From the NCBI GenBank assembly GCA_947653505.1, contig CANTHI010000188.1, positions 1 to 7,186 on the forward strand: a DNA stretch of 7,186 nt, given 5' to 3'. This stretch comes from an uncultured Eubacterium sp. (GTDB lineage: Bacteria > Bacillota_A > Clostridia > Lachnospirales > Lachnospiraceae). The translations under genes and the position numbers were made by a program. The notes below the pieces were generated by a model, which saw only the letters and a list, made by a program, of their open reading frames with translations, had not been told where the DNA came from and did not search any database. Shown in pieces: positions 1,665 to 7,186 of the stretch (the first letter of the stretch is position 1; each line of letters starts with the position of its first letter).

Positions 1665-1672
1665 TTATGATA

Positions 1673-3580
1673 ATGAGAAACATGACAGAACTGGATATGT
1701 ATTTATTCGGTCAAAGCACACACTATGATATTTATAAAAAGATGGGTGCACATCTTATGACAGTTCATCAGAAGGAAGGGACCGTTTTTGACGTCTGGGC
1801 GCCTCATGCAGCGAGAGTATGGGTGATCGGTTCTTTTAATAACTGGGATGAAACACGTCATGAAATGAAACGGCTGGAACCGTTGGAAATGGGAATCTAT
1901 GAACTGTTCATTCCTGGCGTAACAAATGGAGATATGTATAAATATCTCATAGAGACGCCGGACGGAAGACGTCTTTATAAGGCTGATCCATATGCTACTT
2001 ACGCAGAACTGAGACCGGGAAGTGCATCTGTAGTTTTTGATGTTTCGCATTTAAAATGGTCTGACCAGAACTGGATGGATACACGTGCAAAGACAAATCC
2101 ATACGAAAAGCCGATGGCAATCTACGAAGTACATCCGGGTTCCTGGAAACGCCATCCTGGCAGAGAGGATGAAGGGTTTTATACATACCGTGAGTTTGCA
2201 AGAGCGCTTACCGAGTATGTAAAAGAAATGGGATATACACATGTTGAGCTGATGGGCATTTCAGAGCATCCGTTTGAAGGATCGTGGGGATATCAGGTAA
2301 CGGGATATTATGCACCGACCTCCCGTTATGGAACACCAGAAGATTTTGCTTATCTGATTAATTATCTGCATCGCAATAAAATCGGTGTCATTGTAGACTG
2401 GGTACCAGCACATTTTCCAAGAGATGCGCACGGTCTGGCTGATTTTGACGGATGTCCGCTGTATGAATATCCGGATCCAAGGATGGGAGAACATCCAGAC
2501 TGGGGAACCAAGATATTCAATTACGGAATGTCAGAAGTGAAAAACTTTCTGATCGGAAGCGCTCTGATGTGGATTGAAAATTATCATGTCGATGGTCTGC
2601 GTGTCGATGCGGTTGCTTCGATGCTGTATCTGGATTATGGTAAAAATGACGGACAGTGGGTAGCGAATAAATATGGCGATAATAAGAATCTCGAGGCAAT
2701 TGAGTTCTTTAAGCACATCAACACGTCACTGACAGGCAGAAATCCGGGTGCGGTTATGATTGCAGAAGAGTCTACAGCATGGCCGAACGTAACGGGTAAA
2801 GCAGAAGAAGACGGACTGAACTTTAACTTTAAGTGGAATATGGGCTGGATGCATGATTTCCTGGATTACATGAAGCAGGATCCATATTTCAGAAAAGGCT
2901 GTCACAACAAAATGACATTTGCAATGAGCTATAATTGCGCTGAAAAATATATCCTTGTATTGTCACACGATGAAGTAGTTCATTTAAAATGCTCAATGGT
3001 AAATAAAATGCCAGGACTTGGACAGGATAAATTCCGCAATCTGATGGTTGGCTATACATTCTTCATGGGGCACCCAGGCAAGAAGCTGCTGTTTATGGGA
3101 CAGGATTTTGCCCAGCTGCGGGAATGGAGCGAAGAACGTGAGCTGGACTGGTTCTTACTGGCCGAAGAGAGTCATAGGCAGTTAAACGACTTTTTCAAGG
3201 AGCTGCTGCACATTTACCGTAAATATCCATCTATGTACGAGCTGGACCATTCCTGGGACGGATTTGAATGGATGAATGCAAACGACGCATCACGCAGTAT
3301 TTTCAGTTTTGTGCGCAAGAGTAAGAATGGTAAGAGAAACCTGCTGTTTATCTGTAACTTTACACCAGTAGAAAGAACAGATTACCGGGTAGGCGCTCCG
3401 GCAAAAGGATCCTATAAGCTGATCTTAAACAGTGATGACAGCCGTTTTGGCGGTACTGGCAGACACAGACCACTCACCTATAAGACAGTTAAGGCAGAAT
3501 GTGACGGCAGGGATTATTCCTTTGCATATCCGCTTCCGGCGTATGGAGTCGCTGTATTTGAATATAACTATAAAGTATGA
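1673..3580 (+). CDS. glgB: 1,4-alpha-glucan (glycogen) branching enzyme
   Basis: This enzyme (EC 2.4.1.18, GH13) cuts alpha-1,4-glucan chains and re-attaches them by alpha-1,6 links during glycogen synthesis in the cytoplasm. Start 1673 gives 635 residues. A CBM48 domain comes first (about residues 33-120, with FDVWAP and GSFNNWD), then the motif EVHPGSW (152-158), the (beta/alpha)8 barrel and a C-terminal beta domain (about 530-635). Region I is DWVPAHFP (D242, H247). Region II is GLRVDAV with nucleophile D312. Region III is IAEES with acid/base E365. Region IV is LSHDEV with D433. The 53- and 121-residue spacings between the three acidic residues equal those of E. coli GlgB (D405, E458, D526). 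The extra N-terminal module of the 728-residue E. coli enzyme is absent, as in many short GlgB proteins. No other glycogen gene is visible nearby. It lies 64 bases after the upstream gene and is followed by its own terminator. Confidence 0.97.
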   Translation: MRNMTELDMYLFGQSTHYDIYKKMGAHLMTVHQKEGTVFDVWAPHAARVWVIGSFNNWDETRHEMKRLEPLEMGIYELFIPGVTNGDMYKYLIETPDGRRLYKADPYATYAELRPGSASVVFDVSHLKWSDQNWMDTRAKTNPYEKPMAIYEVHPGSWKRHPGREDEGFYTYREFARALTEYVKEMGYTHVELMGISEHPFEGSWGYQVTGYYAPTSRYGTPEDFAYLINYLHRNKIGVIVDWVPAHFPRDAHGLADFDGCPLYEYPDPRMGEHPDWGTKIFNYGMSEVKNFLIGSALMWIENYHVDGLRVDAVASMLYLDYGKNDGQWVANKYGDNKNLEAIEFFKHINTSLTGRNPGAVMIAEESTAWPNVTGKAEEDGLNFNFKWNMGWMHDFLDYMKQDPYFRKGCHNKMTFAMSYNCAEKYILVLSHDEVVHLKCSMVNKMPGLGQDKFRNLMVGYTFFMGHPGKKLLFMGQDFAQLREWSEERELDWFLLAEESHRQLNDFFKELLHIYRKYPSMYELDHSWDGFEWMNANDASRSIFSFVRKSKNGKRNLLFICNFTPVERTDYRVGAPAKGSYKLILNSDDSRFGGTGRHRPLTYKTVKAECDGRDYSFAYPLPAYGVAVFEYNYKV

Positions 3581-3590
3581 ACAAAATCGT

Positions 3591-3623
3591 AAAAAGGCAG
3601 AGGCGTAGTCCTCTGTCTTTTTT
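3591..3623 (+). terminator. Rho-independent terminator of glgB
   Basis: The stem AAAAAGGCAGAGG (3591-3603) pairs with 3610-3622 across the six-base loop CGTAGT. There is one G-T wobble, and the T run is at 3618-3623. It begins 10 bases after the glgB stop codon. The A-tract on the left arm means it could also act on the opposite strand. Confidence 0.92.
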
Positions 3624-3641
3624 ATTGGCCTCCCGGACGCC

Positions 3642-3686
3642 GGATGAGGGAACCGGCCCTGTTTCATTGTTCCGGTTTCCTCACCC
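3642..3686. repeat. Imperfect inverted repeat downstream of the glgB terminator
   Basis: Bases 3642-3656 (GGATGAGGGAACCGG) can pair with 3672-3686 (CCGGTTTCCTCACCC). There is one A-C mismatch and one G-T wobble, and the loop is 15 bases. A TTTTT run begins at 3692, a few bases after the stem, so it could be a weak second terminator. The arms are GC-rich compared with the surrounding AT-rich spacer, so a small dispersed repeat is an alternative. It sits about 20 bases beyond a strong terminator. Confidence 0.6.
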
Positions 3687-3800
3687 AGCTGTTTTTCTAA
3701 GGCGTTACATAAAACTGTAGAAGGATGTTTTTCGAATGTATGGCGAGTCTGTATCAATTTGTGTGTTTGTGCGGCCTGCCATTCCTCATGCCTGAAATAT

Positions 3801-3828
3801 TAAAGTTTTCAAAAGAAATAGCCGACAT
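3801..3828 (+). promoter_or_regulatory. Sigma-28/sigma-D (flagellar) promoter candidate
   Basis: TAAA (3801-3804) is followed after 16 bases by GCCGACAT (3821-3828). The flagellar sigma factor consensus is TAAA, about 14-16 bases, then GCCGATAT or GCCGATAA; only one base of the -10 element (C for T) differs from the Bacillus form. Transcription would start near 3835, giving a leader of roughly 80 bases before the ATG at 3918. It lies beyond the glgB terminator, upstream of a gene whose C-terminal segment looks FliK-like. Both facts favour a real late-flagellar promoter. Confidence 0.72.
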
Positions 3829-3905
3829 ATTTTATATGATTTGATTGTTTATGATTTAGATCGTTAGAAAATAATTCGTTCACATTAGGTTTTTGCAGGA
3901 AAGGC

Positions 3906-3909
3906 AGGA
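3906..3909 (+). promoter_or_regulatory. Shine-Dalgarno sequence for the 3918 gene (decides start)
   Basis: AGGA ends 8 bases before the ATG at 3918, within the purine-rich stretch AGGAAAGGCAGGA. The same frame has a TGA at 3852-3854 and no start codon between it and 3918, so 3918 is the first possible and best-placed start. Confidence 0.75.
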
Positions 3910-3917
3910 TATATAGA

Positions 3918-6900
3918 ATGCAGGGAGTGCACAAAATACAGATAGACGGCGCAAATCTGTTAGATGGAATCGGAAACAGCACCAGACAGGAAGGGTTTGA
4001 CTTTGGTACGGTATCCACAGGAACAGAGAAAATGCATGAGACAGAGAAACTGTCCAAAGGGGAGAGATCAACTGAGGTTATTTACCAGAAGCCGCAGCAG
4101 GAAAAGCAGGCTGGTACGGTTCAGGATGTGATGCAGCAGGCAGAAAATATGGATACGGCTGCCATGAAAGACAGAATGGTAGTCGCTTCCAATACAACTA
4201 CGACAGCAGACTGCAGAAAATTGGAAGAAGAAGGATTCTCTTTGCAGCAGACAGAGATCGGAACAGTAGTTACCGTAACAGATAAAATAAAAATGCAGCT
4301 GGCAAAAGCAGGAGTCGACATCAGTTATTTTGGAGATGACCTGAGTGCGGAGCAGATCGAGGCTTTTGCGGGAAATGCCGCGTTTGCGCAGGAGCTCAGT
4401 GGAAAAATCCAGCAGATGGCGGCAGACATTCCGCTGACAATGGATAATGTAACAGACTGTAAAAGAGCGCTGGATCAGGCAGGGGAACTGCAGAAGATGA
4501 GTGACGGCGCATTAAAATATATGCTGGATAATCAGCTGGATCCATCGATTGCAAATCTTTATAAAGCACAGTACAGTGGCAGTGCAGGTTATGTTAGTGA
4601 AAATGATGTACAGATGGATTTTTCCGGAATGAAAAGTCAGATTTCCAGAATTATCGCACAATCCGGACTGCCAGAGGATGAAAAGTCATTTGCGGACAGT
4701 GAATGGCTGATACAGAATCAGATTCCATTAACAACAGAAAATCTGAATTATCTTGCTCAGTTAAAGCAGATGGATGTTCCGCAGGATAAAGAAAAGCTGA
4801 TGGAGCAGATGATCACGGCAATTGCCGAAGGCAAAAGACCGGAAGATGCGATACTGCTGGACGCATATACACTGGCAGGGCGTGTGCAAAAAGCAATGGA
4901 TGTGATCAGCCAGACAACGGATGAGGATCTTGTTTCTGTTATTCGCAGCGGGGAACCGCTTACAATACAGAATCTGGAACAGGCGCACCGGCAAAATCAG
5001 GCAGGCGCATCCGATGCGGCAGAACAGGAAGCAACTGCGCAGATTATTAAAAACGCAGATCAGATTGAAAAGCGTGCTCTGGCAGCGGGTGGCGTACCAG
5101 TGGTTTCAGGTTCGCAAAACGGGCAGGAAATTTCTGGGAATACAGCAGCCGGACAGGGACAGGAAGCAGCAGGAACTGTAACAGCCGGGCAGGAAGCGGT
5201 TGGAATTGTGACAGCCGGACAGGAAACTGCTGAAACTGTAACAACCGGACAGGAAGTGACAGAAGTATGGCAGTCGGAATCTGTTTCTTATACGAGTGTG
5301 GAGATTATGCTGATTGCAGCGCGCAGGCAGCTTGAGGAAATCCGGATGTCAATGACCATAGAGGCAAGCTATAAGATGTTAAAAAATGGTATTTCCCTGG
5401 ATACGACTCCTATGGAAGAACTGATTACGAAATTAAGGGAAATCGAAGACAGTTTTTATAAACATATGCTCAAAGAAGGCGGCGTGGAAGCGACACAGGC
5501 AAATGTAAGCTTGTTTGCGGAGACGACAGCCAGACTGGAAGAGCTGAAAGGAATGCCCGCGTATGCACTTGGTGCGCGGAATATGCAGATTCATACGCTT
5601 GATGAGCTGCATCAGGAAGGCAGCGCCATGCAGCAGAGCTTCCAGCAGGCAAATGAACGTTATGAGACGATGCAGACGGAAGTCCGTAAAGATCTGGGAG
5701 ACTCTATTCAGAAAGCATTTGAAAATGTGGATGAGATATTAGAGCAGATCGGGCAGGAAGTCAGTCCGTCAAATGAACGCGCTGTCCGGATACTGGGATA
5801 TAACCGGATCGAAATTACGCCGGAAAATATAGCGAAAATGAAAGCGGCAGACCAGCAGGTACAGACAGCATTTCATAATCTGACCCCGTCAGTCGTGCGC
5901 GAGTTTATCAGCAGAGGAATGAATCCGCTGGATATGGATATTCAGGAGCTGAATGCGCAGGCAGAGCAGATCAGAAAAGAACTGCATATTGAAGCACAGG
6001 AAGATAAGTACAGTGAATACCTGTTTAAACTGGAGCAGAATCAAAATATCTCACTGGAAGAAAGAAATTCTTATATCGGCATCTATCGTCTGATGAACCA
6101 TATTGCGGAGTCTGACGGAGCAGCGATTGGCGCTCTTGTAGAGCAGGGAGCGGAAATTACCATGCGCAATCTGCTGACGGCAGTCCGTTCGCAGAAACAT
6201 GGACAGTTTGATGTGACGGTAGACCAGAAGTTTGGTGCATTTGAAAGCGGCGGATACCGTGATTCAATTACAAAGCAGATCGAATCTGGTTATCAGAATC
6301 AGTGTGCGAGGCAGGCATTTCATGAGATTTCCCCAGAGCGTCTGCGTACTGTGACAAACGAGACGGGATGGGAAGATCTGACGCCGGAGCAGTTTTTGCA
6401 AAAGCTGCAGGAAGCGCCGGAAGATCTGGCTGCACAGGAAGCTTATGACCAGCAGCAGCTCAGGGATCTGGAGGCATGCGCAAAGTCTAAGGAAGAAGTA
6501 TTTCAGGTATTGGAGCAGTATGGGATTCCAAATACGATGCTGAATGTCATGGCAGTATCAGAGCTGATGCAGGACCGCAATATTGCATTTCGCAGGTTGT
6601 TTGGCGCAGGTAACGGACGCACGCCGGATGCATCCAAAAATACGGACCAGTATATGTCAGAAAATGAAGACGGCAGCGTGGAAGTGGATTTTGAAGCTTT
6701 AAAAGAAGAATTGCTGCGCCGGTTTGGTGAGGATGTAAAGAAACCGGAAGAACTCGCAAAGGCCGTTGCAGAGCTGGCAGAATGTGCGGAAAAATGCATG
6801 AGTACGATGATACTGGAGCCGGATACGACGAGTCTGGATGTCCGGGGACTGAAATTAATGAATGCACAGATTTCTATCGGGGCAAAAATGGCGTCTACGG

Positions 6901-7186
6901 AATGTTTTTCCATGCCAATTGTTGTAGATGGAGAAGTTACGAATGTAACGATGAAGATTGTGCGCAATAAGCAGCAGAAAGGGCTGGTAAATATTACGCT
7001 GGATTCAGGCAGTTTTGGCAGAATCGCGGCACAGCTGCGGGCAAAACAGAAAGGATGCAGCGGATATATCGTTTCGGATTCCAGACAGACGACAGATATT
7101 CTGAATGCAAAAAAGGAAGCATTTACCGAAGCACTGGAAGAAGCTGCAGAAGGACCGATGGATCTGAATGTTGTTATGAGCAGTGG
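3918..7186 (+). CDS. Large repeat-motif protein with FliK-like C-terminal segment (3' end outside window)
   Basis: The frame is open from ATG 3918 to the window edge without a stop: 1089 full codons, no frameshift seen. The product lacks a signal peptide and membrane segments and is rich in Gln, Glu, Ala and Met, mostly helical. A motif x-(P/E)-(L/I)-T-x-x-N-(L/I/V) recurs near residues 171, 269, 346, 631 and 745, each time before a predicted helix. Looser copies lie near 491 and 667. A low-complexity repeat linker spans about residues 400-451. After an acidic, helix-rich stretch (about 910-985), residues 998-1080 (MPIVVDGEVTNV, VNITLDSGSFGRIAAQL, GYIVSD, then a helix ending TEALEEA) follow the strand-strand-helix pattern of the FliK C-terminal (Flg_hook) domain. 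A sigma-28-like promoter lies upstream. It may belong to the long Lachnospiraceae DUF6240-type proteins; that name is from memory. A role in hook or secretion control is inference. FliK proteins are usually about 400-500 residues, so this is far longer. Confidence 0.88.
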   Translation, partial: MQGVHKIQIDGANLLDGIGNSTRQEGFDFGTVSTGTEKMHETEKLSKGERSTEVIYQKPQQEKQAGTVQDVMQQAENMDTAAMKDRMVVASNTTTTADCRKLEEEGFSLQQTEIGTVVTVTDKIKMQLAKAGVDISYFGDDLSAEQIEAFAGNAAFAQELSGKIQQMAADIPLTMDNVTDCKRALDQAGELQKMSDGALKYMLDNQLDPSIANLYKAQYSGSAGYVSENDVQMDFSGMKSQISRIIAQSGLPEDEKSFADSEWLIQNQIPLTTENLNYLAQLKQMDVPQDKEKLMEQMITAIAEGKRPEDAILLDAYTLAGRVQKAMDVISQTTDEDLVSVIRSGEPLTIQNLEQAHRQNQAGASDAAEQEATAQIIKNADQIEKRALAAGGVPVVSGSQNGQEISGNTAAGQGQEAAGTVTAGQEAVGIVTAGQETAETVTTGQEVTEVWQSESVSYTSVEIMLIAARRQLEEIRMSMTIEASYKMLKNGISLDTTPMEELITKLREIEDSFYKHMLKEGGVEATQANVSLFAETTARLEELKGMPAYALGARNMQIHTLDELHQEGSAMQQSFQQANERYETMQTEVRKDLGDSIQKAFENVDEILEQIGQEVSPSNERAVRILGYNRIEITPENIAKMKAADQQVQTAFHNLTPSVVREFISRGMNPLDMDIQELNAQAEQIRKELHIEAQEDKYSEYLFKLEQNQNISLEERNSYIGIYRLMNHIAESDGAAIGALVEQGAEITMRNLLTAVRSQKHGQFDVTVDQKFGAFESGGYRDSITKQIESGYQNQCARQAFHEISPERLRTVTNETGWEDLTPEQFLQKLQEAPEDLAAQEAYDQQQLRDLEACAKSKEEVFQVLEQYGIPNTMLNVMAVSELMQDRNIAFRRLFGAGNGRTPDASKNTDQYMSENEDGSVEVDFEALKEELLRRFGEDVKKPEELAKAVAELAECAEKCMSTMILEPDTTSLDVRGLKLMNAQISIGAKMASTECFSMPIVVDGEVTNVTMKIVRNKQQKGLVNITLDSGSFGRIAAQLRAKQKGCSGYIVSDSRQTTDILNAKKEAFTEALEEAAEGPMDLNVVMSS
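5145..5270 (+). repeat. In-frame 30-bp tandem repeats in the 3918 gene
   Basis: Three consecutive 30-bp units (5181-5210, 5211-5240, 5241-5270) encode TAGQEAVGIV, TAGQETAETV and TTGQEVTEVW. A 36-bp variant (5145-5180, AAGQGQEAAGTV) precedes them, and a diverged unit (…NGQEISGNT) lies before that. Each unit has the GQE core at the same place. The stretch separates the N-terminal motif-bearing part from a long helical middle part, so it is probably a flexible linker whose length can vary by slippage without breaking the frame. Confidence 0.85.

Follow-up and report, generated by a model that had tools for sequence, protein, structure and literature searches.

A giant DUF6240 protein with a FliK-type C-terminal domain is linked to a flagellin operon and is probably not a hook ruler

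The window analysed here is the whole 7,186-nucleotide stretch of contig CANTHI010000188.1 from an uncultured Eubacterium sp. (assembly GCA_947653505.1), and the gene of interest is a forward-strand frame of 1089 codons (3918–7184) that is still open at the window end. Its product belongs to the Pfam family DUF6240 (PF19753; E 5e-124, 413.6 bits against a curated cut-off of 26.6, best stretch residues 472–753), and a scan of the window protein against NCBIfam gave no match above cut-off. P0001, the nearest relative in the protein search, is 98% identical and 1138 amino acids (aa) long with its stop 50 residues later, so that about 50 residues of the window protein lie beyond the window. The accepted role of FliK-type proteins is that of a switch ending hook growth, and the initial annotation had described the window protein as a giant FliK-like protein which was either the hook-length ruler or a separate sigma-28-regulated secretion partner. 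Our analysis indicates that it is very probably a T3S4 (FliK switch-type) protein tied to a flagellin and not the hook ruler.

The relationship to FliK resides in the C-terminal domain. Taken alone, the window protein matches the Pfam Flg_hook profile (PF02120) at residues 1015–1077 with 14.3 bits and E 0.035, which is below the Pfam cut-off. Among 44 relatives the match reached E ≤ 0.01 in 36 (best 3.6e-7) and missed that level in the other 8, and PF02120 is present in the precomputed annotation of 18 of 120 listed homologues. At the family level the similarity became apparent, with a profile of the C-domain aligning to Flg_hook in hhalign at E 1.4e-4 compared to 0.031–0.43 for eight controls. 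The strand and helix pattern of the FliK switch domain, which had earlier been read from the sequence, is present in the AlphaFold2 model of P0001, where residues 995–1086 form five strands, two helices and one strand. When the C-domain was modelled alone (225 residues), the predicted local distance difference test (pLDDT) score was 84–94 at residues 111–180 and 55–68 in the first two strands. The predicted fold is that of the SctP/PscP switch domain and its best PDB match is PscP itself (5CUK), though the fold matches are each weak taken singly; the flagellin operon sets the DUF6240 protein apart from this injectisome ruler. The family as a whole retains the T3S4 domain, in which the Gly, K1020/G1021 and other positions are invariant. 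From the hidden Markov models (HMMs), the profile comparison and the predicted fold, we conclude that the C-terminus is a T3S4-type domain and that the FliK relationship is real, and the FliK-like identity first proposed is upheld.

The remainder of the protein bears out the very long frame with recurring modules that had been noted. PF19753 matches the window protein in two stretches, and in hhalign residues 150–395 align with residues 455–765 at E 2.1e-5 and a score of 43 (five column-shuffled controls scored 12–20), while a third helical region distantly resembles the second module (E 8.7e-4). This self-comparison of the modules did not show a fixed repeat period for the body. Judged by these profiles, a duplicated unit of helical repeats makes up much of the body, and this unit is also present in the YlqG-type proteins discussed below. 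The size of the protein had been overstated, as it is longer than an ordinary FliK by about two-fold (relatives' FliK open frames are 435–585 aa, n = 18) and not several-fold. We note that in the metagenome-assembled locus L002 the DUF6240 gene is split between two frames (2404–4470, 688 aa, and 4672–5922, 416 aa), which is either a real break or an assembly error.

Table 1. Features of the DUF6240 gene and its promoter in the window.
Feature	Position	Strand	Basis
Sigma-28-type promoter TAAAGTTT-N12-GCCGACAT	3801..3828	+	Pattern match; similar box in 31/43 orthologous loci
DUF6240/FliK-like protein, 1089 codons, 3' end beyond window	3918..7184	+	Open frame, Pfam, protein search
N-terminal part, residues 1–75, predicted disordered	3918..4142	+	AlphaFold2 of P0001, pLDDT <50
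First helical-repeat module, residues 150–395, distant copy of DUF6240 module	4365..5102	+	AlphaFold2, hhalign
Disordered linker of variable length, ~residues 390–455, with 30-nt tandem repeat at 5157–5256	5085..5282	+	AlphaFold2, relatives
Second module = Pfam DUF6240 match, residues 472–753	5331..6176	+	E 5e-124
Third helical region, ~residues 781–965	6258..6812	+	AlphaFold2, hhalign
T3S4 (FliK switch) domain core, residues 996–1087; Pfam Flg_hook match 6960–7148	6903..7178	+	HMM, profile comparison, predicted fold
Conserved Gly codon 7017–7019; Ala codon 7029–7031 at FliK Ile-304 position	7017..7031	+	Alignment

Gene context was compared across 43 loci, comprising the three nearest and 40 picked for long flanks and score spread from the 128 genomes with a DUF6240 match. 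A same-strand flagellin gene lies directly behind the DUF6240 gene in 39 of these (the gap is –38 to 167 bp in 37, and 487 and 515 bp in the other two), and FliS comes next after this partner flagellin in 39/39 (the FliS of locus L001 matches PF02561 with 53.7 bits). In the remaining four loci no flagellin adjoins the gene: L048 and L073 reach a contig end less than 200 bp past it, in L059 flagellin and fliS are found about 5 kb further on, and L068 has none nearby. We produced a tree of flagellins having a locus and a complete frame of >150 bits, and this placed the 39 partner flagellins on one side of a branch and 19 distinct other flagellins of DUF6240 genomes (from 76 matches in 15 genomes and 30 loci) on the other with a support of 100/100; partner and other types are separated by one change on the tree compared to a mean of 16.4 in shuffles. 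The partner flagellin (L001:13485–14996 and relatives) has M(R/K)INxN or a similar sequence at its start and ~QANxxPQxVLxLLQ at its end, and the other type in the same cells starts MVVQHN. Clade (a) flagellins of Roseburia start MRINYN and are assigned to sigma-28 in Neville et al. 2013 (PMC3720852), and the partner flagellin may be of this clade, the likeness being one of first residues only. The DUF6240 gene thus leads a late operon with flagellin and FliS in the relatives, and as it belongs with a flagellin and not with the hook genes, it probably controls the export of one particular flagellin.

The flagellar promoter that had been recognised ahead of the gene was also found in our analysis. 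The box TAAAGTTT-N12-GCCGACAT has no mismatches to the sigma-28 pattern (0.16 sites would be expected at ≤3 mismatches), and with this pattern, which was entered by hand and drawn after a first look at the sequences, a similar box precedes the DUF6240 gene in 31/43 orthologous loci compared to 49/2150 dinucleotide shuffles and 5/283 control open reading frames (ORFs) from the same loci. The partner flagellin has a sigma-28-type box of its own in only 13/40 cases, and the box ahead of DUF6240 is therefore likely to serve the whole operon. A FliK should be made before the hook is complete, and the putative late promoter in the window and in 31/43 of the relatives' loci speaks against this.

An ordinary FliK is found alongside the DUF6240 protein. 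In the three nearest genomes, a PF02120 search placed the ordinary FliK and a second Flg_hook protein (about 600 aa) above cut-off and the DUF6240 protein third and below it, and the ordinary FliK was present in 3/3 of these as well as in 15/15 further DUF6240 genomes (E ≤ 4.3e-17 in the 15). The neighbour of the ordinary FliK in the nearest genomes is presumably FlgD, and the relatives' fliK is located elsewhere and not at the DUF6240 gene, which precedes flagellin instead of sitting among hook and basal-body genes. The suggestion that the window protein is the hook-length ruler is therefore probably wrong, because the relatives have an ordinary FliK, the promoter is of the sigma-28 type, and flagellin rather than hook genes lie behind the gene. 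The promoter and the flagellin operon of the relatives favour the other suggestion, namely that of a separate secretion partner under sigma-28 control.

Further analysis indicates that DUF6240 is distributed with flagella. Our family sample consisted of 299 genomes from the family of Eubacterium plexicaudatum ASF492 (G001), which we take to be the GTDB Lachnospiraceae (NCBI lists this species under Eubacteriaceae). DUF6240 was found in 128 (127 above cut-off), FlhA in 155 and both in 126, with FlhA alone in 29 and neither in 142 (Fisher p 1e-52, ignoring the relatedness of the genomes), and 127/128 DUF6240 genomes have a Flg_hook match at E ≤ 0.1. The initial annotation had named orthologues in non-flagellated species as evidence that would refute its FliK-like reading, and since the only DUF6240 genomes without FlhA were G238, in which Flg_hook is matched, and G123, where the DUF6240 match is weak (E 2.7e-5) and Flg_hook is lacking, there is no convincing case of DUF6240 in a non-flagellated genome in the family sample. 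One flagellated genome without DUF6240, G211, may lack it through an assembly gap, as one of its contigs starts with a flagellin of the partner type and fliS. G173, G254 and G282 have complete flagellins of the other type (short or broken pieces also present in the last two are slightly partner-side), the flagellins of G049, G152, G018, G041, G107, G270 and G114 are of neither type clearly (G049 and G018 slightly partner-side), and a search of G154 returned no flagellin match. In three flagellated genomes without DUF6240, a gene encoding only the FlhB C-terminal domain (FlhB-C; 138–163 aa) is found 1.3–1.9 kb from flagellin (L213 in G049, L214 in G152 and L215 in G107, the two genes being on opposite strands in L215), and no YlqG-type protein was detected near it in these loci using the YlqG profile.

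Proteins similar to DUF6240 in their repeats are those we refer to as YlqG-type, with YlqG and YlqH being names from Bacillus subtilis. In a class sample of 391 genomes, 53 match DUF6240 (36 above cut-off), 13 of these with >150 bits and 40 with ≤62 bits. All 40 weak genomes also have a PF02120 match, which is in the same frame (by contig and frame length) in 34, and these 34 frames look like YlqG-type proteins. Normal-size representatives (456–657 aa) have a free FlhB C-domain gene, as in ylqH, directly behind them and no flagellin in the 0.7–5.7 kb flank in 29/29 cases. The five giants (807–1125 aa) have flagellin and FliS behind them in 5/5, with the FlhB C-domain gene in between in four. 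In G565, G612 and G507 the Flg_hook proteins are limited to FliK and the giant, which may there be the YlqG of the cell. A profile of the YlqG N-terminus (N-domain and first repeats) matched 15/44 DUF6240 ORFs of the loci and 24/120 protein-search homologues at E < 1e-3, compared to 0/18 FliK and 2/291 background ORFs (one of them OB/S1-like), and the DUF6240 repeat profiles find YlqG-type proteins weakly (best E 1.2e-4). A YlqG-like N-domain, perhaps OB/TOBE-like, occurs in the first 110 residues of DUF6240 in L052, L053, L066, L067 and weakly in L073; it is similar by eye only in L068 and was not seen in the window protein. The two groups are thus alike in combining DUF6240-like repeats and T3S4 in one frame, and in the N-domain of some members, but differ in that DUF6240 genes are followed by flagellin and not by ylqH.

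The free FlhB-C gene is nevertheless found in the same cells as DUF6240, with exactly one in 18/18 genomes in addition to FlhB (which is broken or partial in two). Among the 14 of these 18 genomes with DUF6240, this gene is away from the DUF6240 gene in 14/14, and it adjoins the second Flg_hook protein in 9/14. It should be noted that flhB of G001 (C1:1881705–1882743) was matched only in pieces with in-frame stops, and that in G147 (C5:295127–295744) the FlhB match covers only positions 1–194 in a frame of 628 aa and the FlhA match is weaker than usual, possibly the result of a rearrangement. A possible history suggested by these arrangements is that the YlqG–YlqH pair joined flagellin–FliS in some lineages and grew, and that in the family of the window the flagellin-linked copy may have lost its YlqH neighbour, with a normal YlqG kept elsewhere.

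Upstream of the DUF6240 gene, the window encodes a glycogen branching enzyme (1667–3580) and the end of an AAA-like protein (1–1608), which has degenerate 33/66-nt tandem repeats N-terminally (24–297 and 379–455; 7.8 copies of 33 nt) followed by an ATPase-like region with weak CobW/SpoVK/EccA-like matches. In L001 this position is occupied by a gene (4285–7839, 1184 aa) with TPR-like matches.

We consider that the window protein may be a giant FliK/YlqG-superfamily protein acting as a late export factor dedicated to a flagellin, and for this statement as a whole, including the docking and steering described here, we see the chances as evenly balanced. Once FliK ends hook growth and sigma-28 is freed, the DUF6240 protein would be produced together with FliS and the partner flagellin. 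The T3S4 domain would dock at the export gate through an FlhB C-terminal domain, either that of FlhB itself or the free FlhB-C protein, and the helical repeats would hold or sense the flagellin–FliS complex or lengthen the stay of the protein in the gate, so that the partner flagellin might be exported in preference to, before or after the other flagellins of the cell. Docking on FlhB-C and the steering of flagellin export are a tentative mechanism, somewhat short of an even chance. Two papers describe FliK acting on the FlhB C-terminal domain, with removal of that domain setting late secretion (PMC13344023), and the FliK-C core binding FlhB (PMC6972891). A free FlhB-C homologue of Helicobacter (FlhX/HP1575-type) is called a 'spare part' in a title cited in PMC3040844, and the FlhB-C-only gene of the 18 genomes is of this kind, its product being a possible partner of the giant protein and not a homologue of it. 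Pfam lists DUF6240 as a repeat module of unknown function, to which the T3S4 domain and flagellin link are added here, and we found no paper on DUF6240 and, judging by title among the matches listed, none describing a FliK-like protein that is encoded with flagellin in an operon of such bacteria.

This interpretation has to contend with the residues by which FliK contacts FlhB. The DUF6240 protein is like FliK in its C-terminal T3S4 domain, conserved Gly, flexible linker and place in the flagellar regulon, and unlike it in its length, helical-repeat body, sigma-28 flagellin operon (in place of a hook operon) and coexistence with a FliK. When register was taken from the profile alignment of the C-domain to FliK, using what we assume to be the residue numbering of 2RRL for the Salmonella contact residues Val-302 and Ile-304, all 44 DUF6240 members had the Gly of the PxLG motif region and I/V/L at the Val-302 position, none had the Pro (0/44), and the Ile-304 position was Ala in 44/44. 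The Pro is retained in 18/18 FliK of the relatives, where the Ile-304 position is L/I/V in 17 and M in one; it is V/I in 17/17 YlqG of the family, I/V in the five giants and S/T/A/V in the 29 normal-size YlqG-type proteins. The Ala weighs against the simplest switch model, in which the protein would be a plain copy of FliK in its action, and it may be the mark of a different partner or mode rather than of lost function.

Several other explanations share part of this evidence. The protein might be an exported part of the flagellum or a secreted protein, which uses T3S4 only to pass the gate and is finally located at the base of the filament, along it or outside the cell, and the flagellin operon and sigma-28 box, the predicted disordered N-terminus and the Ala at the contact position would all suit this. 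We regard it as unlikely, as FliK and SctP use their T3S4 domains to act on FlhB and SctU, and these domains are not general export tags (established for FliK, PMC6972891), and an FlhB C-domain gene adjoins four of the giants. Somewhat less likely still is a role in the cytoplasm as scaffold or chaperone of the partner flagellin, in which the protein is not exported and makes no contact with FlhB, the T3S4 fold being a relic; the large helical-repeat body, linkage to flagellin and FliS, and altered contact residue agree with this, but FliS is already a flagellin chaperone, and a relic would not be expected to keep the domain and its invariant residues across the family.

The hook-length ruler would be a giant FliK measuring an unusually long hook, and the T3S4 domain, variable-length linker and long N-terminal part are features that such a ruler would have. 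It is very improbable given the ordinary FliK, the late promoter and flagellin operon, and the Ala at the Ile-304 position. We give least credence to the C-terminal similarity being due to chance in an unrelated flagellin-linked scaffold. The sub-threshold match of the window protein, the eight relatives without a Flg_hook match at E ≤ 0.01 and the individually weak fold matches might be taken in this way, but most members do match, profile comparison and fold search agree, and for 34 of the 40 weak DUF6240 matches in the class sample Flg_hook is matched within the same frame.

A T3S4 protein that is produced late, together with flagellin and elsewhere also with a spare FlhB-C, would fit a second step at the gate favouring one flagellin. 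We put forward, as a doubtful extension of the flagellin-dedicated export factor, that flagellated Clostridia might have a post-hook specificity step in which sigma-28-expressed DUF6240 works with a free FlhB-C of the YlqH type, able to replace the FlhB C-domain ejected by FliK, and so dedicates the gate to one flagellin; were this true, the order or segment of flagellins in the filament would be set by it, and the long repeat protein would be a possible timer or ruler. If the export factor itself is as we suggest, a further adjustment of export specificity would follow completion of the hook, at the point where a cell having multiple flagellins picks which to send. This suggests a role for a protein family of unknown function present in 128 of the 299 genomes sampled from one bacterial family, and would link YlqG/YlqH-type proteins to flagellin export and concern the flagellins of gut commensals.

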